Virus record (IMG/VR): IMGVR_UViG_3300031841_001859 | Location: 1-61,389 of that record | Length of the DNA: 61,389 nt | Origin: a virus | Strand: one strand, 5' to 3' | Part shown: positions 20,110 to 59,618 of the stretch, piece after piece | How the letters are laid out: every line of letters begins with the position of its first letter | How positions within the stretch are numbered: the stretch's first letter is position 1 | Position numbers and translations under genes: made by a program | Notes under the pieces: model-generated | Databases searched by the model: none | What the model saw: only the letters and a program-made list of their open reading frames with translations | Told to the model about the DNA's origin: nothing

Positions 20110-21267
20110 GAAATTAAAGTAAGAGAAGTAACTGACGTAGAAGAAAAATCTAGTCAGCAAATAGAACAAGAGCTTTTAGAAAAGCACGAGCAAAAACTAG
20201 AAGCTGTTGAAAAAAATACTGAAAGTGTCGCACTCGACACAAATCAAGTTGAAGATGTACAAGAAAAAGAAGAAGTACAACAAGAAATAAAGGAAGAGAT
20301 TGAAACTCCTCCTGTTGAAGAGCAACCTCCCGTTGAAAAGGAGTTAGCTGAAGATGAAGTTCTTTCATATATTGGAAAAAGATATGGTAAGGAAATTAAC
20401 TCTATTGATGAGTTAGTTAGCACTCGTGAAGAAAGCGAACCGCTTCCTGAAGATGTAGCTGCTTACCTAAAGTATAAAAAAGAAACTGGACGTGGTTTTA
20501 ATGATTTTGCAAAATTGCAAAAAGATTATTCCGATTTAAGTTCAGATGCTTTGCTAAGAGAGTATTATACAATTACAGAAGAAGGATTAGATTCTGATGA
20601 CATAACATCTTTGTTAGAAGAATTCGATTATAGTGAGGAAACTCATGAACCTTCGGAAATTAAAAAATTAAAATTAGCAAAGAAAAAAGAGATTGCTAAA
20701 GCTAAAAAGTTTCTACGTGAACAGCAAGATTTATACAAACAGCCCCTTGAGTCAAGGGAAAGTTCTGCCGCTGTTGATAATGACGAAATAATTCAGTACA
20801 GGCAATACATGGAAACAGCAAAAGTTACTTATGCTGAGAATGAAAAAAAATCTCAGTGGTTTGAGAAAAAAACAAATGAAGTTTTAAGTCCAGAGTTTAA
20901 AGGTTTTAAATTCAATATTGGTGAAACAGATTATGTATATTCTCCTGGTAGTGTTTCTGACATTAAAAAAGCTCATCAAACTCCTATGAACTTATTAAAT
21001 AAGTTTATGGATACTGAAGGCTATATTAAAGATGCAGAAGGATACCATAAAGCTTTAGCTGTTGCAATGAATCCTGAAGGGTTTGCAAAGTTTTTTTACG
21101 AACAAGGTAAATCACAAGCAACAGATGATGTAATGCGTAAGACTAAAAATATTGAAATGTCAGAACGTCAAGCACCTCAAGTTGCAACTAAATCAGGATT
21201 TCAAGTTAAGTCAGTTTCTCAGCCATCAAGCCGAGGACTGCGAATTAAGAGTATTAAAAAAAGTTAA
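20107..21267 (+). CDS. Putative capsid scaffolding protein
   Basis: The 386-residue product is very rich in Glu and Lys. The first 85 residues are Glu/Gln/Val low complexity, the middle is acidic and helical, and the last 40 residues are basic (QVKSVSQPSSRGLRIKSIKKS region). A charged helical protein with a basic C-terminal end directly before the major capsid gene is the usual layout of a scaffold. The palindrome at 20225-20240 lies in its low-complexity N-terminus and encodes SVALDT. Confidence 0.7.
   Translation: MEIKVREVTDVEEKSSQQIEQELLEKHEQKLEAVEKNTESVALDTNQVEDVQEKEEVQQEIKEEIETPPVEEQPPVEKELAEDEVLSYIGKRYGKEINSIDELVSTREESEPLPEDVAAYLKYKKETGRGFNDFAKLQKDYSDLSSDALLREYYTITEEGLDSDDITSLLEEFDYSEETHEPSEIKKLKLAKKKEIAKAKKFLREQQDLYKQPLESRESSAAVDNDEIIQYRQYMETAKVTYAENEKKSQWFEKKTNEVLSPEFKGFKFNIGETDYVYSPGSVSDIKKAHQTPMNLLNKFMDTEGYIKDAEGYHKALAVAMNPEGFAKFFYEQGKSQATDDVMRKTKNIEMSERQAPQVATKSGFQVKSVSQPSSRGLRIKSIKKS
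20225..20240. repeat. Dispersed palindrome copy 1 (GTGTCG-CACT-CGACAC)
   Basis: A perfect inverted repeat with a 4-base loop inside the scaffold gene, read as AGT GTC GCA CTC GAC ACA. It belongs to the family at 39912, 47346, 55457, 57623 and 59603. Confidence 0.8.
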
Positions 21268-21289
21268 ATAATAATAAAAATATAAAATT

Positions 21290-22747
21290 ATGGCAGGACA
21301 AGTTGCAGCGTCACCCACATTTGCGTTGACGCCGAGTTCAGAAAGAACTCCAACAGCACAAAACTATATTGTAAATTTTGATTTCTTAAATCAGTATCTA
21401 CCAGATACGTATGAAAAAGAATTCGAAAGATATGGTAATAGAACGATTTCTTCATTCCTTAGAATGGTAGGAGCGGAAATGCCTACAAACTCAGACCTTA
21501 TTAAATGGGCAGAGCAAGGTAGGTTACACACAAAATATACACAAGTTGGTACAGGAGCAATATTAAATGCTGACCAAGCAGAATTTCAAGTAAATGATGT
21601 ATTAGACCCAACAACTGCTGAGCAAGTAATCAGAGTTGGACAAACTATTGTGGTTGTTCAAAATGATGGTTCAGGTATGAACAAAGCGGTTGTAAGTGCA
21701 GTAAACAATGCCGGTGGTGGTAGAGGACGCTTCACAGCTGACTTTTACGAAGCAGGTGGTTTGGTAACTGCAGGTACTGGAGTTGGTAACTCTGACGTTA
21801 CAGTATTCATTTACGGTTCTGAATTTAAAAAAGGAACAGCAGGCATGGTAGGTTCGTTAGAAGCAAATGACTTTATTTTCGATAACAAACCAATCATTAT
21901 TAAAGATACATATACAGTAAATGGTTCTGATATGGCACAAATTGGATGGGTAGAAGTTACTACTGAAGATGGAGCTACAGGATATTTATGGTACTTAAAA
22001 TCTGAGCACGAAACAAGATTAAGATTCGATGACTATTTAGAAACAGCAATGATTGAAGCTGTGCCAGCAGAGCAAAACTCTGGTGCTGCCGCTATCTTAG
22101 GTAGCGCAGGTGGTGCTGCTAACCCAGGCGCTGGTTCTGATGGTATTTTCTATGCAGTAGAAAACAGAGGAAACATTTGGAGTGGTGGTAACCCTACTAC
22201 TTTAGCTGACTTTGATTCTATTATTAGTAGATTAGATAAGCAAGGTGCTATTGAAGAAAACGTATTATTCGTTGACAGACAATTCGCATTTGACATTGAC
22301 GATATGTTAGCTGCTCAGAACTCTTACGGTGCTGGTGGTACTTCATACGGTCTATTTGACAATGACGAAGAAATGGCATTAAACTTAGGATTCTCTGGAT
22401 TCAGAAGAGGTTACGACTTCTACAAAACAGATTGGAAATACCTAAACGACCCTACTATGAGAGGTGGTTTACCAACAAATACTGGTTCTGGTAAAATCAA
22501 TGGTTTATTAGTACCAGCTGGTTCAACTAGCGTATACGACCAAATTCTTGGTAAGAACGCTAAGAGACCTTTCTTGCACGTAAGATATAGAGCTTCAGAA
22601 ACTGAAGACAGAAGATATAAGACTTGGATTACTGGTTCTGCTGGTGGTGCTGCTACATCTGATATCGATAATATGCAAGTTAACTTCTTAAGTGAAAGAG
22701 CTGTATGTACTCTAGGTGCAAACAACTTCTTCTTATTTAAGCAGTAG
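21290..22747 (+). CDS. Major capsid protein
   Basis: The 485-residue protein is preceded by a scaffold and followed by a strong terminator, the usual setting for a phage capsid gene. It begins MAGQVAASPTFALTPSSERT, then NFDFLNQYLPDTYEKEFERY, and ends CTLGANNFFLFKQ. Mixed alpha/beta content, no Cys clusters or membrane segments, and the FLNQYLPDxYE element resemble capsids of crAss-like and related Bacteroidetes phages (from memory). Codons look more C-ending than in neighbouring genes (for example AAC and GAC), as expected for a highly expressed protein. Confidence 0.82.
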   Translation: MAGQVAASPTFALTPSSERTPTAQNYIVNFDFLNQYLPDTYEKEFERYGNRTISSFLRMVGAEMPTNSDLIKWAEQGRLHTKYTQVGTGAILNADQAEFQVNDVLDPTTAEQVIRVGQTIVVVQNDGSGMNKAVVSAVNNAGGGRGRFTADFYEAGGLVTAGTGVGNSDVTVFIYGSEFKKGTAGMVGSLEANDFIFDNKPIIIKDTYTVNGSDMAQIGWVEVTTEDGATGYLWYLKSEHETRLRFDDYLETAMIEAVPAEQNSGAAAILGSAGGAANPGAGSDGIFYAVENRGNIWSGGNPTTLADFDSIISRLDKQGAIEENVLFVDRQFAFDIDDMLAAQNSYGAGGTSYGLFDNDEEMALNLGFSGFRRGYDFYKTDWKYLNDPTMRGGLPTNTGSGKINGLLVPAGSTSVYDQILGKNAKRPFLHVRYRASETEDRRYKTWITGSAGGAATSDIDNMQVNFLSERAVCTLGANNFFLFKQ

Positions 22748-22757
22748 TAATTAATTC

Positions 22758-22786
22758 AAAGGGGTACAGTAATGTGCCCCTTTTTT
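22758..22786 (+). terminator. Rho-independent terminator after capsid gene
   Basis: Stem GGGGTAC/GTGCCCC with flanking A:T pairs and a 6-base loop, followed by TTTTTT. It begins 11 bases after the capsid stop. Confidence 0.85.
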
Positions 22787-22793
22787 AAATTTT

Positions 22794-22818
22794 AAATTAA
22801 ATTAAATTAAATCAAATG
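22794..22818 (+). promoter_or_regulatory. AT-rich leader before 22816 gene
   Basis: Repeats of TTAAA/ATTAA ending in TTAAATCAAATG, a close relative of the leaders at 14343, 20109 and 32062. No TAnnTTTG box is seen between the terminator and this leader, so the gene may rely on read-through or a hidden promoter. Confidence 0.45.
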
Positions 22819-23622
22819 AATAAAGAAAAGACAACCACAGAAAAGTCGGGTGGTTTAAAAGTAAAACCCGCAAAAACATCCCCAAAGTTTGTTGACAAAA
22901 CTTATAAGCTTACCAGAGAGGTAGCTCCTTTATCTTTAATATTAGCATCAAGACACACTAATCGTGTGCCCTTATTATATTTTGATGAAGAGACAGGTGT
23001 AAATAGACCACTGAGATATGCAAGAAATCAAAACTCACCTTTTCAAGATGAGCAAGATGATAATGCAATATTAGAACCTATAGTGTTTGAAGATGGATTT
23101 TTATATGTTCCAAAAAACAATCAAGTATTACAAAAATTTTTATCATACCATCCAGCTAATGGAAGTATTTTTGTTGAAATAAACAAAAAGAAAGAAGCTC
23201 AAGATGTTGTTGATAGTCTTAACGCAGAAGTTGATGCTTTAATTGAAGCAAGACAACTTGATGTAGAGCAAGTAGAAACTATTGGTAGGGTATTATTTCA
23301 GCAAGATGTGACAAGAATGTCTACTTCAGAACTTAGAAGAGATATATTAATATTTGCTAAGCAAGACCCTAATGGGTTTTTAATGATGTTAAAAGACCCT
23401 ATGCTTAAGTTAAACGCTACCATACAAAATATGTTAGATAAAAACTTATTGCAGTTAAGAAATAAACAAAAAGAAGTCTGGTATAATACACCGTCTAATA
23501 AAAAGAAAATGTGTAACATACCTTATGGAGAAGACCCACTATATATTATAGCTTCATTTTTCCAAAGCGACGATGGACTTGATATGTACAAGCACCTAAA
23601 AACGTTAGTTAAAAATTCGTAA
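22816..23622 (+). CDS. Hypothetical head/neck protein
   Basis: A 268-residue soluble protein with a Lys/Pro-rich N-terminus, a beta-rich middle (ILEPIVFEDGFLYVPKNNQVL) and helical remainder. It lies between capsid and connector genes on the same strand, where head-completion or capsid-vertex proteins usually map. No recognisable motif. Confidence 0.6.
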   Translation: MNKEKTTTEKSGGLKVKPAKTSPKFVDKTYKLTREVAPLSLILASRHTNRVPLLYFDEETGVNRPLRYARNQNSPFQDEQDDNAILEPIVFEDGFLYVPKNNQVLQKFLSYHPANGSIFVEINKKKEAQDVVDSLNAEVDALIEARQLDVEQVETIGRVLFQQDVTRMSTSELRRDILIFAKQDPNGFLMMLKDPMLKLNATIQNMLDKNLLQLRNKQKEVWYNTPSNKKKMCNIPYGEDPLYIIASFFQSDDGLDMYKHLKTLVKNS

Positions 23623-23627
23623 CTTTG
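23620..23627 (+). promoter_or_regulatory. TAnnTTTG promoter box
   Basis: TAACTTTG overlaps the stop region of the preceding gene and lies 29 bases before the ATG at 23657. Confidence 0.5.
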
Positions 23628-23656
23628 TTTTTTGTTTAACCCATAAATTTTTTAAC

Positions 23657-23941
23657 ATGGCAAAATATATAACATTAGATACAGCAAGTGACGGTAATGT
23701 ACACATTAACACAGATTCAATTCTTTATGCAGAGACTGTAAGCTCTACTGCGGGAGATATATTTCTTACAAATGGAACACACAAATTAACGGTTACTGGA
23801 ACTGGACTGACATCAGGTTTTGCTGGGAACGTAAACACTGCACTGGTTACAGCAGCAGAAACTTCTTGGACAAACGCAACAGTACCAGTATCGAAAGATG
23901 GTGGACTAGTATTTACTAGTATCGCTATAGGAACAGTTTAA
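23657..23941 (+). CDS. Small structural protein, 94 aa
   Basis: A beta-rich, Thr/Gly/Ala product without Cys. Its promoter (23620) and dedicated terminator (23964) isolate it as a single-gene unit, suggesting high, independent expression such as that of a capsid decoration protein. Function inferred from context only. Confidence 0.6.
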   Translation: MAKYITLDTASDGNVHINTDSILYAETVSSTAGDIFLTNGTHKLTVTGTGLTSGFAGNVNTALVTAAETSWTNATVPVSKDGGLVFTSIAIGTV

Positions 23942-23963
23942 TCCTTCCTTTACTATCGACAGA

Positions 23964-23991
23964 GAAAGCACCCAAATCAGGGTGCTTTTTT
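23964..23991 (+). terminator. Rho-independent terminator
   Basis: AAAGCACCC / GGGTGCTTT stem with a 6-base loop and a following T-run. It isolates the 23657 gene from the connector operon. Confidence 0.88.
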
Positions 23992-23999
23992 ATTTTGTG

Positions 24000-24007
24000 T
24001 ATCTTTG
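24000..24007 (+). promoter_or_regulatory. TAnnTTTG promoter box for connector/tail genes
   Basis: TATCTTTG starts just after the preceding terminator and 17 bases before the ATG at 24024, so it probably drives the 24024-32024 operon. Confidence 0.6.
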
Positions 24008-24023
24008 TATTAAACTTTTTTAA

Positions 24024-24758
24024 ATGATAAATTCAGTTAGAAATACTGTGTTAGCAATAGTAAATAAAAATAACTATGGATATATTTCTCCAGGTGATTT
24101 TAACTTATTTGCTAAACAAGCTCAGTTAGATTTATTTGACGAATATTTTTTTAATTACAATGAACAAGTTAATGAAGAAAATGCTAGGCTATCCGGTACT
24201 GGTTATGCTAATATAAAGTTAGGTTATGAAGAGGTAATAGATTATTTCTCAGTAACAGAATTTTTAACACAAAAAACATTAGGTACAAGTGTTTATTATT
24301 TACCTTCAACCACGACAACCGGTTCAGATTATTATTTATTAAATAAAGTATTATGTTACTCAGGGGGTAACTTATTAGGTGAAGCAGAAAAAGTTACACA
24401 TTCTAAAATTACACAATTAAATAGTTCACTATTAACTGCTCCTAATACAACTTTCCCTGCTTATACTCAAGCTGGAGACTCTATTACAGTGTTTCCAACT
24501 ACAATAAATGCTGGTTCAGATGTACAAGCACAATATATTAGATATCCAAAAGACCCTAAATGGACTTATGTTACTTTATATAATGGAGAGCCTTTATTTG
24601 ACCAAACAGCAAGCGACTATCAGGATTTTGAATTACCAATTGATGATGCAAATGATTTGGTAGCTAAAATATTACAGTATGCAGGAATATCAATAAGAGA
24701 AAAAGATGTTTTTGAATTTGGAAAAATTGATGAACAGCAACAAGATAATCAAAAATAA
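24024..24758 (+). CDS. Putative head-tail connector protein
   Basis: 244 residues: a helical N-terminus (SVRNTVLAIVNKNNYGYISP, GDFNLFAKQAQLDLFDEYF), a beta-rich middle, and a C-terminal helix with LPIDDANDLVAKILQYAGIS. It sits two bases before the next gene and upstream of the giant tail protein, as ring or adaptor proteins do in Bacteroidetes podophages. Motif support is weak. Confidence 0.6.
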   Translation: MINSVRNTVLAIVNKNNYGYISPGDFNLFAKQAQLDLFDEYFFNYNEQVNEENARLSGTGYANIKLGYEEVIDYFSVTEFLTQKTLGTSVYYLPSTTTTGSDYYLLNKVLCYSGGNLLGEAEKVTHSKITQLNSSLLTAPNTTFPAYTQAGDSITVFPTTINAGSDVQAQYIRYPKDPKWTYVTLYNGEPLFDQTASDYQDFELPIDDANDLVAKILQYAGISIREKDVFEFGKIDEQQQDNQK

Positions 24759-24760
24759 CT

Positions 24761-25681
24761 ATGGCATATATAAATCAAAAACAATATTATACAAATAACG
24801 GTGTAAATCCGACAAACAATAATTGGGGTTCATATCAATACACTTCTTTGACAGATATAGTAAATAATTTTTTATTGATGTATCAAGGAAACCATGAGAT
24901 GATTAACAATGTCAATCGTTTTAAAATATTATTTCACGCTAAAAGGGGTATACAAGAGTTAAATTACGATGCTTTAAATGAAATAAAAGCATTAGAATTA
25001 ACAGTATATGATGACTTAAAGTTTGTTTTACCATCTGATTATGTCAATTGGGTAAAGCTATCTTTGTTCAAAGACAATGTAATTCGTGATTTAGTTGAAA
25101 ATATTCAAGTTCAATCTGCTACACAATATGTTCAGAGCGGAAGCTCTACTTTCACTTACGATGGAAGTAACAATGTGAACACTCAAACTTCTTCACTGGA
25201 CACATCAAGAACTGATGGTTCACTTAAAAGTATATATCTAAATGATGTAAGAGAAGAAGCAGTAAACCCTGGTTGTAATAATTGCGAAGATGATATTTAT
25301 GAATCAAGAATAGGAGCTCGTTATGGTTTAAACACTGAAACAGCTAACTTTAATCCTACTTTTACTATAGACAAAGCTAATGGAGTGATTAATTTTGATT
25401 CAACTATGGCTAATCAACAATGTATACTACAATATATTTCGGATGGTATGGAAAGTGGTAATGATGCAAATATTAAAGTAAATAAATTATTTGAAGATTA
25501 TCTATACGCATACATAAAATATTCATTATTAAATAATAAATTTGGAGTACAAGAATATATAGTGAATAGAGCAAGAAAAGATAAACAAGCTTTACTTAGA
25601 AACGCTAAGATTAGATTGAATAACATTCACCCAAGTAGATTGCTTATGAATTTAAGAGGGGAGAATAAGTGGATAAAATAA
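24761..25681 (+). CDS. Putative head-tail joining/stabilisation protein
   Basis: 306 residues beginning MAYINQKQYYTNNGVNPTNN. The region FKILFHAKRGIQELNYDALN followed by ALELTVYDDLKFVLPSDYVN resembles a conserved phage neck protein pattern in Bacteroidetes phages (from memory). A CNNCEDD turn lies near residue 173. It overlaps neither neighbour but is separated from the tail gene by only one base. Confidence 0.62.
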   Translation: MAYINQKQYYTNNGVNPTNNNWGSYQYTSLTDIVNNFLLMYQGNHEMINNVNRFKILFHAKRGIQELNYDALNEIKALELTVYDDLKFVLPSDYVNWVKLSLFKDNVIRDLVENIQVQSATQYVQSGSSTFTYDGSNNVNTQTSSLDTSRTDGSLKSIYLNDVREEAVNPGCNNCEDDIYESRIGARYGLNTETANFNPTFTIDKANGVINFDSTMANQQCILQYISDGMESGNDANIKVNKLFEDYLYAYIKYSLLNNKFGVQEYIVNRARKDKQALLRNAKIRLNNIHPSRLLMNLRGENKWIK

Positions 25682-38358: not shown

Positions 38359-41300
38359 TGGAAACACAAGAATTATTTGACATATTACCAACAGGTGTTT
38401 TTTCTAACGCTGAAGAACTACAAAAGTTTTTAGATGATGGAGATGTAAATCAATTATATCCTTTATTGGATAAAGAAAAGTTTCCCACTCTTGAATCATT
38501 TCAAGTTTCCTTAAAAAAAAAAGACACTCCAGAAATAAATACGGAGTTAGAATTGGAAGATGGTTTGTCGGAGCAGCCAGAGTCAGCTGAAGAAAAGAAA
38601 ACTCCAGAATCTGATTTAGGTAAAATTTTCAAATCCAATTTTTTAAGAACTGTAGGAGGTATATCCGACATTCCTTTGTTTATAAACCAAAGTGTTTTTA
38701 GCGCATTTGCTCCTAAACAACAAAAAGAATATATAAATAGTCTTACTCCAGAACAAAGAGAAATATTTTTTGAAACTTTAAATACTGCACAAGCTCAGAC
38801 TGGAGGTGGTTTACCTATGGATACAGACTTTTCAAGAAAAATGTATAATGAAGCCAATCGTTTAAGGGAGCTTGTTGACACACAATACGACACCGGCATA
38901 ACTCAAGATATCTTTTCTGAAAATGTGGGTAGAGGTTTGAGAAGACTTACTAACGAAGCAGTAGGAGCTATACCTCAAATAGTTACTGCGTTTGCTCCTG
39001 GTGGTATTGTAGCAATAGGAGCAGGGACAGCAGCTACAAAATCCAGACGTCTCCAAGAAGAAGGAGCTGATTTAAATTTTAAAACACAATTAAATTCAGC
39101 AATTACAGGTACAGCTGAAGGAATATTTGAATTAGTAACTTATAGAATGGGTGGTCAACTGTTCAAAGGTTTAAGAGAAGCGTTATCATCTCAAGGAAAA
39201 GAAGCTGTTAAGGAATCACTTAAAACAATATTAAATGCTTATAAAAAAGGATTTGCAAGAGAGGGAGTTTCAGAGTTAGCTACAGAAGCTACTGAAGATT
39301 TAGCTGACCTTATAGTGCTTGGAGATGAAGAAGCTTTTGCAAACGCATTTTCAAGATATGCGGATACATTTATTATAGGAGGAGCTACAGGTGGGCCGAT
39401 TCAATCTTTTGCCCCTGGAGTCAAAAGAATTGTTCAAGGTAGACAACAAAAAATATTAAACGACAACGTAAAAAAAAGTAAATATAATAATGTACTAGAG
39501 CCATTTGATGTTGAATCTGGTAATATGGTAGTTGAAATAGACCAGCTGCCAATAGTGCAATCTCCAAATGCAGATTTATTTATCAACAGTACAGTTGACA
39601 ATCAAGTAAAAAGAAACGAGATATCGAAAACCCAGGCTGAACAAATAAAAGAAAACTTTGCTGTAGCTAAAGGTATATTCAACCAAATACCCACACAGAA
39701 TTTTAATACACAACAACAAAAACAAGCAGCTGATTTGTTGTTTGAAAAACTTACTTTAGAAAATTTTGTAGCTGGTAAAGATGTAAATCTTGTTACAAAA
39801 GAAATACAAAGAATAGAGTCAATTAATGAACAGCTAAAAAATATAGGATTACAAGCTCAACCAATAACAAGTACAGAGCAAGCTGTAGAAGAGGTCGAGA
39901 TTAAAGATGAAAGTGTCGTGAGCGACACTCAACAAAGAATATCTGTCGCTCCTTTTTTTGCAACACAAATTGAAACAATCGATGACGCAGAATCTTTGAG
40001 ACAAGATAATAAATACACGGAGTATATAACTGGTCTTAATACATTAATAAATGAGTTTGGATTAGAAGGCCAAGTAGAAGAAACGCTAGGCGGATTTCAA
40101 TTTGAAGACGGCACAACTGTTAGAGAAATATCTAACAATATAATTTTAAATAACGCTACCGAAACACAAGGTGATGAGTTTGCTGCGTTAGTAGGCGCTC
40201 TTGCTCCTGAAGTGCAAGAAGCAACTATAGCTGCTAATTATACAGATAAACAATCAGGCGATGCTAATGGAGTTGAGTTTATTTTACAAGTTGATAATAT
40301 TCAAGGAGCTCTCGAAACCGTTGCTGATGTTGGGATTACAGATTTTACTTTGAATCAATCAAATAATTCCTTATCTTTACTTAATCTTGATTTTATGGAT
40401 AGTGAAGTATTTCAAGATAAACTTAATAATCTTTTAGAAAAATTAGATGAAAAACAAATTAAATACTCAGCCCAAGACACAAGGCCAATCAACTCTCGAT
40501 ACATTGATGCTGAAGCCAGAAGGGAAATTTTACGAACTATTCAAAGACGTTCCGTTGAACAACAACTTGAAGGGGAAAGCCTTTATCCGAAAGTTGTCCA
40601 AGCGTTAGAACGTATAGGAGAAACAGTAACTGAAACTACAGTTGAAGAAACTGTTGAACCTTCCCCTACATCTCCCGAACAAATTATAGAAACCATAGGC
40701 GACCCTAGCATGAGCATGGAAGAAACCATTTCTGTGGGTAGAGCTCAAGGTTTTTCAGACATTCAAATACAAAAAGTTTTACAAGGTAGAGGGTTTAAAG
40801 TTAGAGATATAAAACCTCTTTTAGAATTAAAAATAGAAATACCTGCTGCTTTTAGAAATATAGCTGGTGGTATAAATGTAGGTCAACCTATATTTAATCA
40901 AGTTCAATCCGAGCTAAATGCCTTTGTAAAAAAAGCTGATAACGTTTTACCTGGAGCAAGAAGAGCTAAAGCGTTAGAAATTTTAAAAGCTAATGAAACA
41001 TTTCAAACTTTATCTGAGATAGACCAACAACAACTATTATTAGGTTTAGATAGAACTTTAGGAACAACAGCTAATAAAGTTATACAGCAAGAAATAAATC
41101 AAATAAAAAATTCAATAGCTGATTTCAAAAAAGGTATAAAGGATTTAAAGCAAGCGCAAAACACTGTTAATAATTTTATTAGAAAAGCTTTACCAAATGA
41201 GAAAGAAATCAAAGGGTTTGTTTCCTCTATAAATAAGGTTACTAGCAAAGATGATTTACCTGCTGTTGCTGAAAAAATAATAAAACAAATAGAGCAACAA

Positions 41301-45392: not shown

Positions 45393-45914
45393 TTATAAAA
45401 TTTTTTCTAATTTTTGATTTAATTGCTTATATTTTTCTTTAGCGTGATGGGGTTCGTAACCATAATGTTTTTTAGCTAGAGCAAAAAAACTATCGTATTC
45501 TTTAAGAAGACCATCCTCTATAAATGATTTTAAAATTTTACATCTATTAGATAAAATTTCGTTTTGCTCAATCAACTCATCAATTGTAAAGTATGTGTCT
45601 TTTCCGATAGGAACATTTAATTTTTTCATTAAAATTTCTTTAAGCTCATTGTATGGGTCAAGGTATTTTTTGTCATTTGAAAATACAAAATTATCAAACT
45701 GCCTTAGGCCATGAAGGACTGTAGCGTGGTTTCTATTAACTGCTTCTCCTATCTGAGATAAAGAACAAAAAGTAAAATCTCTACATAATTTGTAAAATAT
45801 AAAACGTGACACAACAAAGTGATGTTGACGGGCTTTTCGTCTTAATTGAACTTTAAATTTTGATTCTACTAATTGCAGTATTATGGTTATAGATTTAATA
45901 AATTTAGGTTTCAT
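45393..45914 (-). CDS. DnaA domain IV-like DNA-binding protein (first)
   Basis: 173 residues. The segment from about 27 to 75, including RKARQHHFVVSRFIFYKLCR, SLSQIGEAVNRNHATVLHG and LRQF, matches the duplex-DNA-binding domain IV of DnaA, where the signature is DHTTVLHA. The AAA+ ATPase part is absent. A stand-alone domain IV could recognise DnaA-box-like sites in the phage origin or compete with host DnaA. A second protein of this type is at 53292. Confidence 0.75.
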   Translation of the reverse strand: MKPKFIKSITIILQLVESKFKVQLRRKARQHHFVVSRFIFYKLCRDFTFCSLSQIGEAVNRNHATVLHGLRQFDNFVFSNDKKYLDPYNELKEILMKKLNVPIGKDTYFTIDELIEQNEILSNRCKILKSFIEDGLLKEYDSFFALAKKHYGYEPHHAKEKYKQLNQKLEKIL

Positions 45915-47048: not shown

Positions 47049-48278
47049 TTATAAACTTAATAAATCTTTTTCGAAATGTTTCAAAGTGTAATCTTTTTTC
47101 TTTGATACCGTCTTATAAATTTTATCTTCGATTCCGTTGTCTGCAAAAATCCAGTACACATAATTCTTTCTTGAATCTTTAGTTGTCATTCTATCTCTGG
47201 ATTGCCAGTAGCTAAGTGCACTAAAGTCTATGTTGTAATACACCAGGTAATCAGCTTCTTTCAAACTTATTCCCTCTCTTCCACTTACTATCTGCAACGC
47301 AATACTTTTATTTGTGGTCTTAAACTCTTCCAACTCGGTAGTAAGAGTGTCGCCCAAGACACTTTTTAAAGCATCGTATTCAGCTTTAAATTTATAAAAG
47401 ATACCGAGCTTCTTATTTTTAAATTGCGTGGCTATAAACTCCGCTTTTGATGTATCGAGAACTAAAGACTTTCCGCTTTCAAACTTCACAGTACCAGAAA
47501 ACATTTGATGAATCTTTGACATAAGCTTAACTCCAGTGTCTGCTAATATAACTTCACCCGTCTTTCCCTTTATAACTAAATCTGTTTTTAATTTTTTAAT
47601 TAACTGGTAGGTAGTAAAATCCATTTTTACTTTCAATACTTTCTCAATAGTCTCTACTTTAAACCCCGCCTCCTTCTGCGTGTAGGAAATCATATATGGT
47701 TTCATTTCATCTAAGATTGTTTCTTTGCCTTGCGTGTAGTCGTTGTGTGGCATTGCTCCAATCTTTTTCTGAAACACATTGACATACTCTCTTGCGAACT
47801 TATAAAAGTTTGTGTGATGTTTGAAAGGATTGTTAGGACAAGAGTACACTTGATGATACATCTGACTAAATGATTCGGGAGTTGGTGTTCCTGACATTAG
47901 AATAACGTAGGGTCTATTGATAAGTATTATATCTTTTACTTGCTTAGCTCTCTTACTTGGCTTTGGATACGCACCCATTGAATGAGCTTCATCAAGTACA
48001 ATTAAATCAAACTTACCTTGAATCTTATGTAAGCTTTCATAATTAATAATAACAATCTCGTAGTTGGGATTTAGTTTATTGTAATCTTCCTGGATGGAAG
48101 ACATCGCTTTCTTCTTTGTTACGAACAACATCCTGCCAATGTTTAAATTGTTTGCTACACCCATAGCAGTAAGTGTCTTTCCAGTTCTTACCTGCATAGA
48201 CAAATAAACAAACTTACTTTTATAAACCACGGCTGTGGCTTTTTTAATAATCTCTATTTGATAGTCACGATACTTCAT
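47049..48278 (-). CDS. SF2 DNA helicase (SNF2/DEAH type)
   Basis: 409 residues. Motif I MQVRTGKTLTA (28-38), motif II DEAH (96-99), motif III SGT (129-131), and the C-terminal motifs SGREGISLKEADYLVYYN (V) and WQSRDRMTTKDSRK (VI). It resembles the compact helicases that many marine phages carry with replication and repair genes, for unwinding or fork remodelling. A degenerate copy of the dispersed palindrome falls at 47346-47363 within it. Confidence 0.86.
   Translation of the reverse strand: MKYRDYQIEIIKKATAVVYKSKFVYLSMQVRTGKTLTAMGVANNLNIGRMLFVTKKKAMSSIQEDYNKLNPNYEIVIINYESLHKIQGKFDLIVLDEAHSMGAYPKPSKRAKQVKDIILINRPYVILMSGTPTPESFSQMYHQVYSCPNNPFKHHTNFYKFAREYVNVFQKKIGAMPHNDYTQGKETILDEMKPYMISYTQKEAGFKVETIEKVLKVKMDFTTYQLIKKLKTDLVIKGKTGEVILADTGVKLMSKIHQMFSGTVKFESGKSLVLDTSKAEFIATQFKNKKLGIFYKFKAEYDALKSVLGDTLTTELEEFKTTNKSIALQIVSGREGISLKEADYLVYYNIDFSALSYWQSRDRMTTKDSRKNYVYWIFADNGIEDKIYKTVSKKKDYTLKHFEKDLLSL
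47346..47363. repeat. Dispersed palindrome copy 3, imperfect (AGTGTC...GACACT)
   Basis: Outer 6-bp arms are intact; the inner pair is mismatched. In the helicase gene (minus strand) it reads AGT GTC TTG GGC GAC ACT (SVLGDT), the same frame as the other coding copies. Confidence 0.6.
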
Positions 48279-52905: not shown

Positions 52906-53329
52906 TACTTTTTAATTTTTGAGTTAGCTTGAAATATTTTTTGAGTATCTGCTCTCTAGTTTCCTTGAAGAACTTCAACCTCTTCTGACTGTTGCTGCTG
53001 TTTATTTCTCTTGCGATACTATCCTTTATTCTCTCTAGTTTAGATTTGTATTTGGATAGTGTCATTTGAATCACAGCCTTTCTCCACCCTTGCTCCTGGA
53101 AAAACATATAGCCCTCCGGGTCAATCTCGACATAGTAGTTGGTGCTTTTTTGTGGGTCAAATATTTTAACCTCGCCAGTCTCATCATCTCTAATGATTTT
53201 AACTCCCAGGTAAATACAAGACTCATACCCATCTCCTATGAGGTGTACACTTGCATAATCAGAACAAGCTTCATTGAATATTTCATCTAAGTTATACTTC
53301 AATTTCTTCTTGCATAATTGAATTAGCAA
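52898..53329 (-). CDS. Hypothetical protein, 143 aa
   Basis: The first 10 residues overlap the upstream gene; a TTG giving MKYNLDEIFNEAC may be the true start. Beta-rich centre (SCIYLGVKIIRDDETGEVKI, EIDPEGYMFFQEQGWRK), helical basic end. No known domain. Confidence 0.55.
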   Translation of the reverse strand: MLIQLCKKKLKYNLDEIFNEACSDYASVHLIGDGYESCIYLGVKIIRDDETGEVKIFDPQKSTNYYVEIDPEGYMFFQEQGWRKAVIQMTLSKYKSKLERIKDSIAREINSSNSQKRLKFFKETREQILKKYFKLTQKLKSND

Positions 53330-53597
53330 TTAGTTTAAAGTCCTTATCGTTTTCGATAGTCGTTGTTATCTCCTTGATACCGTGTAGTATCGTAGTGTGC
53401 TCAAGAGAGTGACCCTCCCTAGACATATAATCTTTTATCTCGGTTGGTCTCATTCCTCTTTTCGTACACAAGTAGTATAACAATTGTCTAGCCTCAACGA
53501 CTGACTTCTTTCTAGACTTTTCAAACAAGTCCGCATGGTTTATTTCCATGTGCTCTAATATTCTTTCAATGAACTTTTTAAATAATTTATATTTCAT
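53292..53597 (-). CDS. DnaA domain IV-like DNA-binding protein (second)
   Basis: 101 residues. KKSVVEARQLLYYLCTKRGM, TEIKDYMS and SLEHTTILHGIKEI match DnaA domain IV, with EHTTILHG close to the DHTTVLHA signature. Like the 45393 protein it lacks the ATPase. The two share only the motif pattern, so they may recognise different sites. Confidence 0.75.
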   Translation of the reverse strand: MKYKLFKKFIERILEHMEINHADLFEKSRKKSVVEARQLLYYLCTKRGMRPTEIKDYMSREGHSLEHTTILHGIKEITTTIENDKDFKLIANSIMQEEIEV

Positions 53598-54703: not shown

Positions 54704-54712
54704 AATAATGCA

Positions 54713-54741
54713 AAAAAAAAGCAGGCCTTTCGACCTGCTTC
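54713..54741 (-). terminator. Rho-independent terminator, leftward
   Basis: On the minus strand AAGCAGG / CCTGCTT with a TCGAAAGG-type loop, followed by eight T. It closes the unit of the 55308-54759 genes before the promoter at 54672. Confidence 0.88.
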
Positions 54742-54758
54742 AACATTAAAACTAAAAT

Positions 54759-54869: not shown

Positions 54870-55089
54870 TATTATTTTCTTTTAATATTTCTTGTATTCC
54901 ATTTAGTCTTCTGAGTTTTTCATCAGTTGGTAGTTCGTTCCAATCTCCTGGTGGTTGCCACTCGGGGTTGGCTTTTCTCATAGTAGCAAAAACAATTCTT
55001 TGTTTGGTTGCCACTTTCTCTTCATCGGTATCAGATAATAATTCTGACATCCATAAAAATTTGTTAGCTAGATTTAGTAAGTCATTCAT
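54847..55089 (-). CDS. Hypothetical protein, 80 aa
   Basis: Acidic helical protein (LNLANKFLWMSELLSDTDEE, LRRLNGIQEILKEN). Two bases after the 55092 gene. Function unknown. Confidence 0.55.
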   Translation of the reverse strand: MNDLLNLANKFLWMSELLSDTDEEKVATKQRIVFATMRKANPEWQPPGDWNELPTDEKLRRLNGIQEILKENNNETNVPI

Positions 55090-55091
55090 TG

Positions 55092-55304
55092 TTATTTATT
55101 TTTAGTGTTAAGATGTTTCATTAAACTTTCTAAGGCAAAATCTATAAACGGGTCTGCCTTTTGTTTGAATACAAGTTCTCCTTGAGTTCTTGTTCTAGGT
55201 ATATTCATCCTAGTTCTATCCTTATCAGATAGTTGCTCTGCCCACTCTTTGGTTTCTCGTTGGGCTTTCTTTTGTTTATGGCCGTGCCATTTAGGTTTGT
55301 TCAT
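55092..55304 (-). CDS. Small basic protein, 70 aa
   Basis: Begins MNKPKWHGHKQKKAQRETKE, with RMNIPRTRTQGELVFKQ and a final helix. Lies between the amidotransferase fusion and the 80-residue gene, spaced by three and two bases. Unknown. Confidence 0.55.
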   Translation of the reverse strand: MNKPKWHGHKQKKAQRETKEWAEQLSDKDRTRMNIPRTRTQGELVFKQKADPFIDFALESLMKHLNTKNK

Positions 55305-55307
55305 TAT

Positions 55308-56417
55308 TTATAGTTTAAATTGTTGCATTACTTCCTCGGTCTCAAATTTCTGACACGAGTGACACCACCATTCATTTGAGTAAGGGTCTTGCTCGGTTGC
55401 TTGTGAGCAGTCCGGACATAGCCTAGTCTCCTGGTTGTAGTTAAGTTCAAAACATTGAGTGTCGCTAGCGACACTCTCCGTTTCTTTCAAGTACTCTTCT
55501 TGTCTCCACCAAGGAGTCCACTCCTTACTGTCTGCATAAGTATAAGACCTATCTCTTAGGGAAAACTTAGGATAGGTTTTTTCGTAGCTACTGTGTAGCT
55601 GCTTGCCTTTGTACTCTTGACCTTGGCCAAAGTATAACCAAGCTTTGTACACTCTGCCTTTAACAAGCACAGTGATTTCTCTTCTCTTGTAGTGTCTCGG
55701 GTGTCCCTCAAGCATATCGAGTTGAGCAAGTGTAGTATCACTGACTGCAAACAAATCAATATCAATAAGGTGTCCCACTCCTGGCTTGTCTATCACATAA
55801 GGTAGCCCTGGTATTATCATCGGGTACTTCATGGTTGTTTTACCTTTACCAATAAAGGTTTCATTTCTAAGATAGCTATAGTAGTTGCCATTGCCTTTCT
55901 TAAGTGTACCATAGACTGCTACAAGGTTGTTCTTAATAACATTGTCTTTGGAGTACCAGGTGCTGCCATCTTTAGTCCATAACTTTTGGTTGTAGATTTG
56001 AAATGTTCTATTCCTGGTGTTGATAGTAACAAACCTGGAATCATACTTCGCAAGTTCTTTTTTCCAAGTGTTACGAGGTATCATACCGAGTGCATTAGCG
56101 AGGGTGCGAGAATCAGATACCGCATCAGTTCCTAGCCCTGGTATTGTACCATTGTGCATCAGTAGTTCGTGCTTGTTGTTACCACATACGAAAGGATGGG
56201 TGTTGGCCTTGTTAACTTTACCTTTGGTTGCATATCTGAAATGAGCAATGAAAGGTCTATTGGTTACAAGTTTTTTCCAGTCCGTAGACTTATGATAAGT
56301 TGTCTCGTAAGTATCGAGCCAAACAATCCCCAGTCCGTGAGGATTTATTTTTGAGGATGTCCTCAAAGTTGTTTTTGACAATTGCTTGCCGGTTTGATTG
56401 ATTATTATTACACACAT
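55308..56417 (-). CDS. Fusion: class II glutamine amidotransferase + gamma-glutamylcyclotransferase (GGCT/AIG2) + zinc ribbon
   Basis: 369 residues in three parts. Residues 1-155: Ntn-hydrolase glutaminase with the N-terminal nucleophile Cys2 (MCVIIINQTGK), HFRYATKG and MHNGT (88-91) oxyanion region. Residues 163-275: GGCT/AIG2-like fold with VAVYGTLKKGNGNY (YGT at 169-171) and catalytic Glu in LDMLEGHPRHYKRRE (E237). C-terminus about 330-360: CPDC...CHSC zinc ribbon. In bacteria these folds accompany amidoligases and handle gamma-glutamyl amides. Here an amidoligase is encoded two genes upstream. A palindrome copy encodes SVASDT in the hinge before the ribbon. Confidence 0.85.
   Translation of the reverse strand: MCVIIINQTGKQLSKTTLRTSSKINPHGLGIVWLDTYETTYHKSTDWKKLVTNRPFIAHFRYATKGKVNKANTHPFVCGNNKHELLMHNGTIPGLGTDAVSDSRTLANALGMIPRNTWKKELAKYDSRFVTINTRNRTFQIYNQKLWTKDGSTWYSKDNVIKNNLVAVYGTLKKGNGNYYSYLRNETFIGKGKTTMKYPMIIPGLPYVIDKPGVGHLIDIDLFAVSDTTLAQLDMLEGHPRHYKRREITVLVKGRVYKAWLYFGQGQEYKGKQLHSSYEKTYPKFSLRDRSYTYADSKEWTPWWRQEEYLKETESVASDTQCFELNYNQETRLCPDCSQATEQDPYSNEWWCHSCQKFETEEVMQQFKL
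55457..55476. repeat. Dispersed palindrome copy 4 (GAGTGTCG-CTAG-CGACACTC)
   Basis: Perfect 20-bp palindrome in the amidotransferase fusion gene, between the GGCT and zinc-ribbon parts; same reading frame as the other coding copies. Confidence 0.88.
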
Positions 56418-56467
56418 AGTTAGTTAGTTGCGAGGGTGCACCATTGTACACGACCTCAAGTTATACA

Positions 56468-56499
56468 CAAAGATACAACAAGTTATGCACATTACCAAA
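56468..56499 (-). promoter_or_regulatory. Leftward promoter of the amidotransferase unit
   Basis: Minus strand TTTG (56496-56499), 20-base spacer, TATCTTTG (56468-56475), 51 bases before the ATG at 56417. Confidence 0.7.
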
Positions 56500-56539
56500 T
56501 TTATTTGTAAGTGCCTGGTTTCCAGAGTTGTAAAATTTT

Positions 56540-56570
56540 TTTGGATTTTCAGATTTGTTTCTTATATTTG
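56540..56570 (+). promoter_or_regulatory. Rightward promoter of a putative small RNA
   Basis: TTTG at 56540-56543, 19-base spacer, TATATTTG at 56563-56570. It points away from the amidotransferase promoter and has no reading frame downstream, only two hairpins. Confidence 0.6.
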
Positions 56571-56575
56571 ATAAT

Positions 56576-56652
56576 CATATTATTTATTTGTGGCGTTTGA
56601 TTAGCGCCGGATTATAATAAAAAGCCGAGTGATTTTATCGCTCGGCTTTTTT
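56576..56652 (+). ncRNA. Putative ~77-nt small RNA with two hairpins
   Basis: The predicted transcript contains GGCG...CGCC (56592-56608) and a 12-bp terminator stem AAAGCCGAGTGA / TCGCTCGGCTTT (56621-56649) with T-run. No ORF is present on either strand in this 419-base gap between genes at 56417 and 56837. A target is not known. Confidence 0.5.
56618..56652. terminator. Bidirectional terminator
   Basis: AAAAAGCCGAGTGA / TCGCTCGGCTTTTTT stem with a 5-base loop; both flanks give a T-run on their own strand. Confidence 0.88.
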
Positions 56653-56791
56653 AATTAGAAATCGAAACAGTACAAATGTAAATCAAGGATGCGAAGAGTT
56701 AATTCGTATTCTGGTTCGGAGTAAAAAAAAATTCTAGTGTGCAAAACTTTTGCATACTATTTCATCCTAACTTTGTTTGGATTAAGCGCAC

Positions 56792-56818
56792 AAAAAAACC
56801 GGCACTAAGGCCGGCTTT
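56792..56818 (-). terminator. Terminator, leftward, after the 56837 gene
   Basis: On the minus strand CCGGC-CTTAGT-GCCGG with a run of seven T. It ends the amidoligase/unknown unit 19 bases past its stop. Confidence 0.8.
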
Positions 56819-56836
56819 CTTTTTTGTCTAAGGGTT

Positions 56837-57544
56837 TTACACCTCGACTCCTTTAAACCTTTCTAAGAGATGCGCATTTTCACTCTTGTAGGCTGCTTGG
56901 AGTTTCTCTAGTAGTAGGTCTCCGACTCTTTCGATATAGTATCTATTAGCTGCGGACCTACCTCCATCGTAGTAAGCCTCAACTTCCTCTTGGTAGTTAT
57001 ATTTAAGGCTCTTGCTTTCCGGCAAATTTAAATACTTGTCGATGGTATCAACCACTTCTTCATTAGTGTCATCCCTCCAGTAATACTCCCATGAGTAATC
57101 TTCGTAAATTTCATTATATACCTCTCTTCTATCATACTTATTTGTACCACCATTGTTGTACAAATCGTAGTAAATATTAGAGTACACTCTGAAACATTCA
57201 AGCAAAGGTTTAAAGGATTGCTTGTCTTGTAGAAAACTCGGTAGGTCATTTATAACCGCTCCGCTTTGCGGAATTAGCTTTTCAACCTTATCTGAAAAGT
57301 CCTGGTATTTACCATTGCCACTCCAGTAAGAGCCATCTTTTAACTTAAAGGAATTGGCTAAGTGATTTTCATATTTAGCCCACCACTCGGTCGGGTTATC
57401 ACATAGCATTGAGATTAAATCCATTTGGTCCTCCTCAGCTAGTAAGCTAAAGGTATCTTCGCCCTTTAATTCTTGGGCCATATAGTTCAAAAGTTTTTCA
57501 ACTTGTTCGGGCATCAGTCGATGCAATTGTTTTACATTATTCAT
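56837..57544 (-). CDS. Unknown acidic protein in the amidoligase cluster
   Basis: 235 residues, acidic and unusually Tyr/Asp/Asn-rich (YNEIYEDYSWEYYWRDDTNE, KYLNLPESKSLKYNYQEEVE, AYYDGGRSAANRYYIERVGD). No recognisable enzyme motif or membrane segment. It lies between the amidoligase and the amidotransferase fusion. It could be the acceptor/substrate of a peptide-tagging reaction, a DNA-mimic or an adaptor. I do not recognise the family. Confidence 0.65.
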   Translation of the reverse strand: MNNVKQLHRLMPEQVEKLLNYMAQELKGEDTFSLLAEEDQMDLISMLCDNPTEWWAKYENHLANSFKLKDGSYWSGNGKYQDFSDKVEKLIPQSGAVINDLPSFLQDKQSFKPLLECFRVYSNIYYDLYNNGGTNKYDRREVYNEIYEDYSWEYYWRDDTNEEVVDTIDKYLNLPESKSLKYNYQEEVEAYYDGGRSAANRYYIERVGDLLLEKLQAAYKSENAHLLERFKGVEV

Positions 57545-57622
57545 ATTTATTTAGTTTTAATTAATGTTACTGTTTCATCCTTTTGGAATCATCAGTCGGA
57601 GCACACACTCCGAAACAGCGGA

Positions 57623-57642
57623 GAGTGTCGTGAGCGACACTC
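57623..57642. repeat. Dispersed palindrome copy 5 (GAGTGTCG-TGAG-CGACACTC)
   Basis: Perfect 20-bp palindrome in the 107-base intergenic gap just after the amidoligase stop. It is preceded by a smaller inverted pair (CGGAG...CTCCG). It may also act as a weak RNA hairpin. Confidence 0.88.
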
Positions 57643-57651
57643 CCCTAGCTT

Positions 57652-58611
57652 TTACTCCCTATCTATCCTTAAGGCAGTGTTAACCATTATCCATTCGCCA
57701 TCTCTATTGGTGGTCGCTCTGTATCTTCCATAGTGACTCGAGTCCTCATTTAAGTCCTCCGGTAGGTACGGGAGTATTCTTCTCGTAACCCTACCTTTGT
57801 CGAGCATCCTTTGAAAGTCCCTAGCTAGCTGAAAGACCTCCTCGACTTTGGCTGCATCTTGGTCGTACATCCTCATCACTATCGGCCTACACTTCTCTAG
57901 GAAAGTGTTGAATCTAGTTCTCGGTCTATGTACTGCAGTGTCCATCAGTTCAAAGAAGAGCGAGTATCTCTTCATTAGTGACTCGGTGCTTGGGACAGCA
58001 CTCGGGAATCTATACTCGGCCACTTTTGACTTTGCATTGATTACCCCCCTCCAGTAGCCGGAGTTATTTAAGAACATATCCCCGTTGCCGTATCTCTTTT
58101 TAAGCCTACCTTTGTACATTGCATATATAAGCCCGGAGAACGGCTTTAAAGCGGCTTTCAGTTCTCTTCCGGACATCCCGTGAGCGGAGAGATTAATATG
58201 CCCTCCGCACGTTGTGTCCACTGGAGCATCCAGTATCGGTCTAGCCTCGGCCATCAAGTCCATCATCTTGTTTTTAAGATTAGAGTTAGGTACTAGCGGG
58301 AGTATGTTTGTAATTGCTTCACAGTCCCTTTCCGACCTTGGACTCCTTGCTACGGAGGAATCTCTTTCATACCCTCTAAAAATTGGGTACTCTTCCTCGT
58401 TATGCACAGTGAGTTTCTCTACCTCAAAGCCTATAGCAAATTTGGTTTTTAAGTATTTGCCATCGGGACTCGGAACATAATATTTTTTATTTACATCCCT
58501 TAGTTCTTGAGCCGGTACGATATTAAATTTTCTATCTAAGCCCTCAGTGCCATTGTATCTAACAAGGTGAGCCCTTGCTCTTTGTCCAGTTTTGTTGTAT
58601 TTAATTCTCAT
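57652..58611 (-). CDS. Amidoligase (COOH-NH2 ligase, glutamine-synthetase-like)
   Basis: 319 residues. GFEVE (61-65), YERDSS (81-86) and CEAITN (97-102) form the acidic metal site; TTCGGHINLS (133-142) is the signature CGxHxN loop; EYRFP (199-203) supplies the substrate-binding Arg. The arrangement is that of the Amidoligase_2 / COOH-NH2 ligase family, which joins carboxylates to amines with ATP (described by Iyer, Aravind and colleagues, often with GGCT and GAT-II genes). The product might be a gamma-glutamyl peptide or a peptide tag on host or phage protein. Its ATG overlaps the upstream gene by 11 bases. Confidence 0.8.
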   Translation of the reverse strand: MRIKYNKTGQRARAHLVRYNGTEGLDRKFNIVPAQELRDVNKKYYVPSPDGKYLKTKFAIGFEVEKLTVHNEEEYPIFRGYERDSSVARSPRSERDCEAITNILPLVPNSNLKNKMMDLMAEARPILDAPVDTTCGGHINLSAHGMSGRELKAALKPFSGLIYAMYKGRLKKRYGNGDMFLNNSGYWRGVINAKSKVAEYRFPSAVPSTESLMKRYSLFFELMDTAVHRPRTRFNTFLEKCRPIVMRMYDQDAAKVEEVFQLARDFQRMLDKGRVTRRILPYLPEDLNEDSSHYGRYRATTNRDGEWIMVNTALRIDRE

Positions 58612-59353
58612 CTTGAACAGTGTTTACATTATCAAATATGTATTGAGCGCAAGCCCTTTGGAACATCCCTAAAAATTCATTTTGAGTATCGCCCTCAAGC
58701 CTTGTTTGTGACCCTCTATTGGTAGAAAATTTAATTTGTTTCCATTGGCCATCTACTTTGATTTTCATAGAGCCCTCAAAGAATTTGCTTAGCTCTTGGC
58801 TTATCTCAGTTGCAACCTCCTCCGGAGTAATCTCGGCACTGGTATCTACAAGAGAGTTCATTATTGAATTTTTAACATCAACCGGTAAATCTGAATATCT
58901 AGTTGTATCGGCTGCTTTCATTGCATCGGCCTTAGCCTTTGCTACTTTGTTAAAAGAGTCGATATCAATTTTAACCTCTTGACCCGCAGATTTTGCAGTA
59001 TGTACTGCAGTTCTATATAAGTTTTGAGTATGTGCCGCCCCGTTGCCAGTTGCAAACTTAGCAGCCTTTTTCAGCCTATAGTACCAGGTATTTGATATTC
59101 TTAAAATTCTCTGAATATCCGTTGGACTCCAGGACATTTCCATATCTTCGAGCATAGCTTTAACACTTTGGTCTTTTAGCTTTTCCTCGATTTCTAAAAT
59201 TAACTTTCCTTTCTCGATTTGAGTGTTGAAAGTATCATATTGAGTTGCCTCAATTTGTTGGTCCAGTTGAGCATACTCCTCAAATTTTAGAGCAGTCGCA
59301 AGGCCTGGATGCCTTTCTAATAGTTGCTTTTCAGCATTGTTTAAATTTAACAT
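58601..59353 (-). CDS. Unknown protein with HTH-like segment
   Basis: 250 residues from the ATG giving MLNLNNAEKQLLERHPGLAT; an earlier ATG at 59380 is possible. Mostly helical; SWSPTDIQRILRISNTWYYR resembles a helix-turn-helix. The C-terminal half (VATEISQELSKFFEGSMKIK and VDGQWKQIKFSTNRGSQTRL) is mixed. First gene of the leftward arm and coupled to the amidoligase. It could be a regulator or a partner of the ligase. Confidence 0.6.
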   Translation of the reverse strand: MLNLNNAEKQLLERHPGLATALKFEEYAQLDQQIEATQYDTFNTQIEKGKLILEIEEKLKDQSVKAMLEDMEMSWSPTDIQRILRISNTWYYRLKKAAKFATGNGAAHTQNLYRTAVHTAKSAGQEVKIDIDSFNKVAKAKADAMKAADTTRYSDLPVDVKNSIMNSLVDTSAEITPEEVATEISQELSKFFEGSMKIKVDGQWKQIKFSTNRGSQTRLEGDTQNEFLGMFQRACAQYIFDNVNTVQDEN

Positions 59354-59602
59354 AATTATAGTTTTAATTGTTAGTATCAATGTTCATTTCTTGTTCATTG
59401 ATAGTTCAATTTAAGGTTATTATTTGAATATACAAAACAATTTACCAGGAAAATATGGACCAATTGCTACAATATCCTGTAAAGTATTGATATTAAAGAG
59501 TTTCTTTTGTATCTTTCCTGGAGTTTTGTTTTCTTTTTTTTTGGGTCGACAGGTGCAAAAGGGAAGGTCCTCCTTCCTCTTTTTTTGGAGAAACGGGGGA
59601 AG

Positions 59603-59618
59603 GTGTCGCGGGCGACAC
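59603..59618. repeat. Dispersed palindrome copy 6 (GTGTCG-CGGG-CGACAC)
   Basis: Perfect 6-bp arms, 4-base loop, at the start of the GC-rich island. Confidence 0.82.

Follow-up and report, generated by a model that had tools for sequence, protein, structure and literature searches.

The 61,389-nucleotide stretch of phage DNA analysed in this work (IMG/VR record IMGVR_UViG_3300031841_001859, hereafter the window) contains six copies of a short palindrome with the arms GTGTC and GACAC, and we consider it rather likely that this palindrome is the cognate, operator-like site of a helix-turn-helix (HTH) protein encoded by the phage itself (positions 58601-59353). The palindrome recurs in related phages in lineage-specific versions, called dialects here, and each lineage's version is probably matched to the DNA-binding protein made by that phage. 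The initial annotation had described the element as either mobile or bound by a protein, and the second possibility is favoured by its fixed 16-bp architecture, by arms that are specific to lineages and are exchanged as whole palindromes, and by a co-occurring HTH protein whose recognition helix is linked to the arms.

The palindrome and its dialects

All six copies that had been reported in the window were located. Five are exact matches to GTGTCGN4CGACAC (starting at 20225, 39913, 55459, 57625 and 59603) and the sixth, at 47347, has one mismatch; it had been called imperfect, which is correct for its inner pair only, since its five-base arms are intact, as in the unit conserved in relatives. 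Six matches with up to two mismatches are well above the 0.26 expected, and six were reached in none of 100 shuffles, while the reversed, non-complemented control pattern gave zero matches in the window. The copies at 57625 and 59603 are taken to be intergenic, the latter being overlapped by an open reading frame (ORF) of 79 amino acids with a TTG start that has no homologue in 18 compared records.

In relatives the conserved unit is GTGTC-N6-GACAC, a 16-bp palindrome with a centre near N-T-Y-R-A-N. The element had been proposed to be 18 bp long with a freely varying loop, and this variation was indeed observed in the window's clade but not in most relatives. The number of copies per record was 19 in G043, 17 in both G040 and G044, 16 in G042, 14 in MW202828 (all identical), 7 in G018 and 6 in the window. 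Among 50 records chosen for their amidoligase or GATase-GGCT gene, GTGTCNTYRANGACAC was present in 34, 31 of which have 6-17 copies, and the reversed pattern was present in none of the 50. Most of the remaining records contain another 16-bp palindrome, with the arms GTCTG, GTCCG, GTCTC, GGCTC, GACGC, GGGTA, GAGGG or GTGTA, and the length of 16 bp is constant over the nine arm sequences. Six relaxed GTNTC copies each were found in G394 and G402, and no repeat was found in G381 and G036. At aligned positions the arms of one dialect are replaced by those of another as whole palindromes, for instance GTCCGTTCAGACGGAC in L581 versus GTCTGTTCCAACAGAC in L456 at 85% identity; this comparison covered 160 loci, several of them from the same records, which had been chosen for the same two genes. 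One 50-record set mixes relatives found through the portal or linker gene with records chosen for carrying the pattern, and the 152 loci found through the portal or linker gene that lack any dialect at three or more copies are shorter pieces covering late genes and do not form a matched control.

The initial annotation had proposed a search of Flavobacteriia genomes; AGTGTCGYNNRCGACACT was absent from all 296 sampled Bacteroidota genomes and GTGTCTTYRAAGACAC from a subset of 148 of these. For these two forms and the sampled hosts, a REP-like host repeat is rejected. No description of the repeat was recognised in the literature searched, which consisted of open-licence PMC papers. A contig scan for the palindrome gave scattered matches among the matches listed. 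Three gut Clostridia genomes (G056, G057 and G058; Lachnospiraceae/Eubacterium) contain 7-12 copies of AGTGTCG-N4-CGACACT with CAAG- or CGAG-like loops, and a perfect 32-base palindrome, AAATGACAGTGTCGAATTCGACACTGTCATTT, is common to the IMG/VR records L020, L035, L058 and L073.

The HTH gene and its partner genes

The presence of the palindrome coincides with that of three early genes, encoding the HTH protein, an amidoligase and a GATase-GGCT protein. In the gene-content comparison, the amidoligase and GATase-GGCT genes were present in every carrier whose sequence covers the region, and G003, G004, G005 and the elemovirus all lacked them. When 28 near-complete records were clustered (18 carrying a clear repeat, 8 lacking one, and G394 and G402), the same two genes were present in 18 of 18 clear-repeat records, which have 4-19 copies each, versus 2 of 8 repeat-less records. 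These two matches, in G036 and G381, are weak (GATase-GGCT score of ~1e-13), and the six records without the two genes have no such repeat. With a hidden Markov model (HMM), the HTH gene was detected in 17 of the 18 carriers, the remaining record (G042) ending inside the region, as well as in G394, G402 and G381, and was not detected in G003, G004, G005, G016, G028, G036 or the elemovirus. Eight near-complete records obtained by portal and linker-gene searches, and thus not chosen for the palindrome, divide in the same manner: G018 and G035 have the HTH gene, the partner genes and the repeat, and the other six (G003, G004, G005, G016, G028 and G036) have neither the HTH gene nor the repeat. 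Members of the HTH family are 200-250 amino acids long, and their gene is located directly upstream of the amidoligase gene in 13 of 20 records having it. In 14 of 17 records the HTH start is preceded by a palindrome at a distance of 16-463 bp. DnaA-domain proteins, which had also been put forward as binders, are present in 7 of the 8 records without the repeat and are therefore not a specific partner; in the window itself, a C-terminal DnaA domain (Bac_DnaA_C) is present in two distinct proteins, at 45393-45914 and 53292-53597.

The AlphaFold model of the HTH protein is good (predicted local distance difference test, pLDDT, of 85.1) and places the HTH helices at residues 77-84 and 88-102, followed by a C-terminal strand-helix domain. 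When the predicted HTH core was compared by VIA-align, the seven best rows were VirB, P1 ParB and SopB bound to DNA, with Z values of 6.1-3.9. Nothing above the cut-off was found for the HTH protein in Pfam and PHROGs; the Pfam search was made with four homologues, and an N-terminal ParB/Srx CTPase domain was among the domains not found. In the model of this 250-residue protein the HTH spans residues 77-102, which appears to leave no room for such a domain. The PDB sequence search with the amidoligase and HTH profiles gave nothing useful.

Further evidence comes from the association between the recognition helix and the dialect. Among 82 non-redundant HTH proteins, 13 of which belong to non-GTGTC dialects, the 12-residue window most strongly linked to the dialect is KTFGYQKSFFYK, the recognition helix. 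The sequence QKS[FY]FYK prevails in the GTGTC dialect, NKSFFYD in GTCCG, KKAFFSE or DRSWFYE in GTCTG, and KKSYFMR in GTGTA. In an identity-matched test, the recognition helix scored highest within the HTH protein (0.100), above the maxima of the amidoligase (0.075) and of GGCT (0.070).

Copies within genes and beside hammerhead ribozymes

Copies are found both between and inside genes, 227 of 598 classified copies being coding, although ORFs were predicted with a simple in-house caller and some assignments may be wrong. It had been stated that coding copies always use a single reading frame, and this is true of the window, where all four encode SVxxDT, but not of the family, where both SVxxDT and VSxxT occur. 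The 217 coding copies of the GTGTC dialect in relatives are distributed over frame 1 (121 copies, xVxxDT), frame 0 (91, VSxxT) and frame 2 (5). The ratio of TTCAAA to TTTGAA centres is 54:4 in frame 0 and 6:61 in frame 1. Since the orientation of the centre tracks the reading frame, the peptide appears to set the orientation while the DNA word is retained either way, which is what one would expect if the DNA site is symmetric.

Comparison of orthologous genes suggests how copies arise. The initial annotation had named SVxxDT in orthologues without the palindrome as a refuting result. For the gene at 20107-21267, 60 orthologues were compared: an N-terminal [SCG]VxxDT occurs in 11, together with the exact palindrome in 9 and with a palindrome one base off in 2, and the other 49 have neither the peptide nor the palindrome. 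The position of the palindrome within the linker of these orthologues varies (37, 40, 64 and 67). In the helicase gene, the window encodes ALKSVLGDTL at a segment that reads ALKQVYGDDL, ALKQVYGDNL, ALKDVFGDQL or ALKKVFQDSI in the site-less relatives G003, G005, G016 and G028, and because these align without an indel, the copy at 47347 must have arisen by substitution. For the site in the 1886-amino-acid gene, the comparison is confined to the window's clade. A gap over the palindrome was observed in 15 aligned pairs, the cleanest being a 23-bp indel in the pair L475/L481, whose loci have 87% identity; L446 and L455 differ by a 31-bp tandem duplication at the site, and the other gapped pairs have 67-80% identity. 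The proposal that the element is mobile therefore holds only in so far as some copies were gained or lost as a unit, and mobility is mostly not supported by these alignments, though a few copies seem to appear or disappear as short indels.

The intergenic copy at 57625 is located next to a predicted type III hammerhead ribozyme (Table 1), which was detected with a model built from ten relatives without the window, all 140 pair cells of which are standard pairs. The site appears to have the hammerhead core CUGANGA / GAAA, three stems and an NUH cleavage site. Rfam Hammerhead_3 gave 31.3 bits (E 0.0096) for it, under the gathering score of 48.5, and no hammerhead was found at the gathering score in six relatives, the sites emerging only with our own model or in a relaxed search. 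A set of 69 pieces, almost all of which belong to records containing the amidoligase gene, gave 37 matches to our model. Of 37 hammerheads (36 model matches after one of 19.7 bits was dropped, plus that of the window, 10 of them being seeds of the model), 31 have the palindrome of their dialect 2-12 nt upstream and in one further hammerhead the two overlap by a single base; of the five that remain, four have a different hairpin at the upstream position. At L416 1727-1777, L610 6997-7047, L641 13060-13110 and L396 10577-10630 the upstream hairpin is in place and the palindrome sequence is lost. The region L451 3777-7660 contains five hammerhead-like sequences in 4 kb, the palindrome being stem III in four of them and the end of the upstream gene overlapping stem I. 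Hammerheads were also found in records without the repeat, namely G028 (68.2 bits) and the elemovirus MT497065, a cultured Flavobacterium phage (29.9 bits, L437 18491-18543), and are therefore regarded as context of the repeat and not its cause.

The carriers of the palindrome are a family of uncultured aquatic phages, the relatives with up to 19 copies being GroEL-encoding podophages. The window portal has 45% identity to those of the elemoviruses of Flavobacterium and 74% to that of the metagenomic record MW202828. No cultured representative of the carriers was found among 50,697 annotated records, the HTH gene occurring there in a single record, which was assembled from a metagenome. The GroEL-like gene is divided between the two contig ends (24-737, which matches Cpn60, and 60443-61389), and the ORFs at 3-737 and 60443-61389 fall into one cluster with one full-length ORF of G366; the window is therefore a phage genome in circularly permuted form. 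A FkbM-type methyltransferase gene at 1020-1793 has no homologue in 18 compared records. Foldseek of the amidoligase model gave six matches at E <=0.001, all of them glutamine or gamma-glutamylmethylamide synthetases.

Table 1. Copies of the palindrome in the window, and neighbouring genes and ribozyme
Feature	Position	Strand or sequence	Description
Palindrome copy 1	20225..20240	GTGTCGCACTCGACAC	In-frame SVALDT (+), acidic N-terminal linker of gene after portal
Palindrome copy 2	39913..39928	GTGTCGTGAGCGACAC	In-frame SVVSDT (+), 1886-aa gene
Palindrome copy 3	47347..47362	GTGTC/GACAC arms intact, inner pair mismatched	In-frame SVLGDT (-), helicase gene
Palindrome copy 4	55459..55474	GTGTCGCTAGCGACAC	In-frame SVASDT (-), GATase-GGCT gene, linker before C-terminal CxxC motifs
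Palindrome copy 5	57625..57640	GTGTCGTGAGCGACAC	Intergenic; hairpin 5 nt upstream (minus sense) of hammerhead ribozyme
Palindrome copy 6	59603..59618	GTGTCGCGGGCGACAC	Divergent intergenic region, 250 bp upstream of HTH gene start
HTH protein, 250 aa, proposed palindrome-binding	58601..59353	-	HMM built without window, E 1.9e-11
Glutamine-synthetase-fold amidoligase, 319 aa	57652..58611	-	pLDDT 87.9; Foldseek glutamine synthetases E 3e-4
Class II GATase + GGCT (PF06094) + C-terminal CxxC motifs, 369 aa	55308..56417	-	Co-occurring gene
Type III hammerhead ribozyme (predicted)	57569..57619	-	Between amidoligase stop codon and next gene; 54.1 bits, E 2.4e-14

Proposed role, alternatives and precedents

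In the mechanism that we propose, the palindrome would be read symmetrically in duplex DNA by a phage-encoded dimeric HTH protein, which would be produced early, its gene sharing a region with those of the amidoligase and GATase-GGCT proteins, and would probably be autoregulated through the palindrome in its own upstream region. The protein may also occupy the further copies across early and late genes, where its simplest role would be that of a repressor or roadblock which times transcription in a stoperator-like manner, this repressor step being the least certain part of the proposal. Selection on the DNA site might be strong enough to place the palindrome in protein linkers, in any frame that is tolerated, and in the hairpin stem 5' of hammerhead ribozymes, and the lineage-specific dialects could have resulted from the site and the recognition helix changing together. 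A more elaborate version, which we regard as quite unlikely, is that the amidoligase and the GATase-GGCT protein act on the palindrome-binding protein, a ParB-type regulator being covalently modified by glutamyl or amide conjugation in the manner of a Pup ligase and then demodified, thereby flipping infection phases, with hammerhead cleavage trimming early messages at the operator-bearing hairpins.

Several observations weigh against an operator bound by the HTH protein. The Z values obtained for the predicted HTH core are weak alone, values below 8 being able to reflect a common arrangement, and at E 0.001 Foldseek found nothing in the PDB for the HTH model. In the identity-matched test a segment of the primase scored higher than the recognition helix (0.145, 32 sequences), so that the association between helix and dialect is not unique and should be taken as supportive, not decisive. 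Furthermore, the window's own helix, SNTWYYR, is unlike QKSFFYK despite the GTGTC arms, and the genes for the HTH protein and the amidoligase are present in G381, together with its weak GATase-GGCT match, yet no repeat was detected there. Finally, intergenic copies are strand-biased (TTCAAA in 174 versus TTTGAA in 19) and show extra pairing in their flanks, for example 0.53 versus 0.29 in shuffles at position 2, which suggests that the palindrome has an RNA role there too.

These last features could be explained if the palindrome acted in transcripts as an RNA hairpin signal, capping 3' ends produced by hammerhead cleavage or termination, perhaps with an RNA-binding protein of the phage. The location of the palindrome just upstream of most hammerheads and its use as stem III in L451 also agree with such a signal, which we nevertheless consider fairly unlikely, because coding copies in frame 1 mostly have TTTGAA in the sense strand, opposite to the intergenic bias, their flank pairing is barely above that of shuffles (0.33 versus 0.22 at position 2), and centres with non-complementary outer pairs (T..C and G..A) are common. 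Moreover, a structural hairpin would not require identical arms genome-wide, and hammerheads are present where the repeat is absent. Alternatively, the palindrome might be a ParB-like centromere or genome-organising site, the HTH protein serving there to condense, bridge or segregate the phage DNA instead of regulating transcription. The best structural matches of the protein, the presence of copies in late genes too, and the size of the sites described in the cited sections on parS and NBS, which are 16-letter palindromes (PMC7383237), and on the 16-bp KorB operator OB (PMC11790492) all point in this direction. Such a role is unlikely in our view, since the modelled helices ahead of the HTH leave no space for a CTPase domain, the copies are concentrated in early genes, and PF13614, the ParA-type ATPase family that was searched for, had no match in 19 records (control, 14/14). 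An integrase match was likewise absent from the 19 records, and thus neither lysogeny nor partition is supported.

Rickettsia palindromic elements and REP are families of small mobile palindromes, and an element of this kind entering genes in frame could account for the 15 gapped pairs, above all L475/L481, and for the 14 identical copies of MW202828. This origin is very improbable given the helicase copy that came about by substitution, the replacement of arms as whole palindromes at aligned positions, and the lack of copies in sampled genomes of the host phylum. An artefact of chance or composition, or plain terminators, can be given practically no weight: although T runs follow some intergenic copies, plain terminators are ruled out by the copies inside genes, and chance is ruled out by the shuffles together with the absence of the reversed pattern from all 50 records.

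If the palindrome is the operator of the HTH protein, the nearest precedent would be the stoperator system of the cluster A mycobacteriophages L5 and Bxb1. In the cited parts of its description, stoperators are 13 bp long, asymmetric, oriented with transcription and mostly intergenic (PMC5712189, PMC3029335), one of them is located upstream of the operon of the regulator, and the consensus of each lineage correlates with HTH residues of the repressor (PMC3029335, PMC5712189). The system described there and the one proposed here share one operator sequence that is repeated throughout the phage genome, a copy upstream of the regulator, and a lineage-specific consensus. Unlike stoperators as so described, the present element is a 16-bp palindrome that is often coding and adjoins hammerhead ribozymes; the HTH protein is also not a known repressor, the 19 records have no integrase match, and the partner genes are different. 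KorB of plasmid RK2, portrayed in the portion of the source used here as a clamp that depends on CTP and has a ParB domain at its N terminus (PMC11790492), would share with the phage protein a ParB-family-like DNA-binding core, which is predicted in the latter, and a 16-bp operator-like site at several places, but the phage protein has no space for the N-terminal domain. ParB/parS and Noc/NBS, for which the cited sections report several copies of the site and a specificity set by few HTH residues (PMC7383237), differ from the phage system so far as described there in that the latter has no CTPase domain, no ParA-type match, and many dialects within one phage family. As regards the ribozymes, clustered phage hammerheads were reported, in the part of the work cited, to flank genes or gene blocks and were proposed to process long transcripts (PMC3088659); in contrast to that account, the palindrome here lies within a hairpin upstream of most ribozymes.

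If our reading is correct, a stoperator-like control network would exist in phages for which no cultured representative was found, and the dialects would constitute a natural table that pairs DNA sites with recognition helices. Protein linkers and RNA hairpins would be shaped by the density of the sites, so that selection acting across the genome on a single short DNA word could be measured, and the HTH protein would give a testable partner for the phage amidoligase and GATase-GGCT pair.

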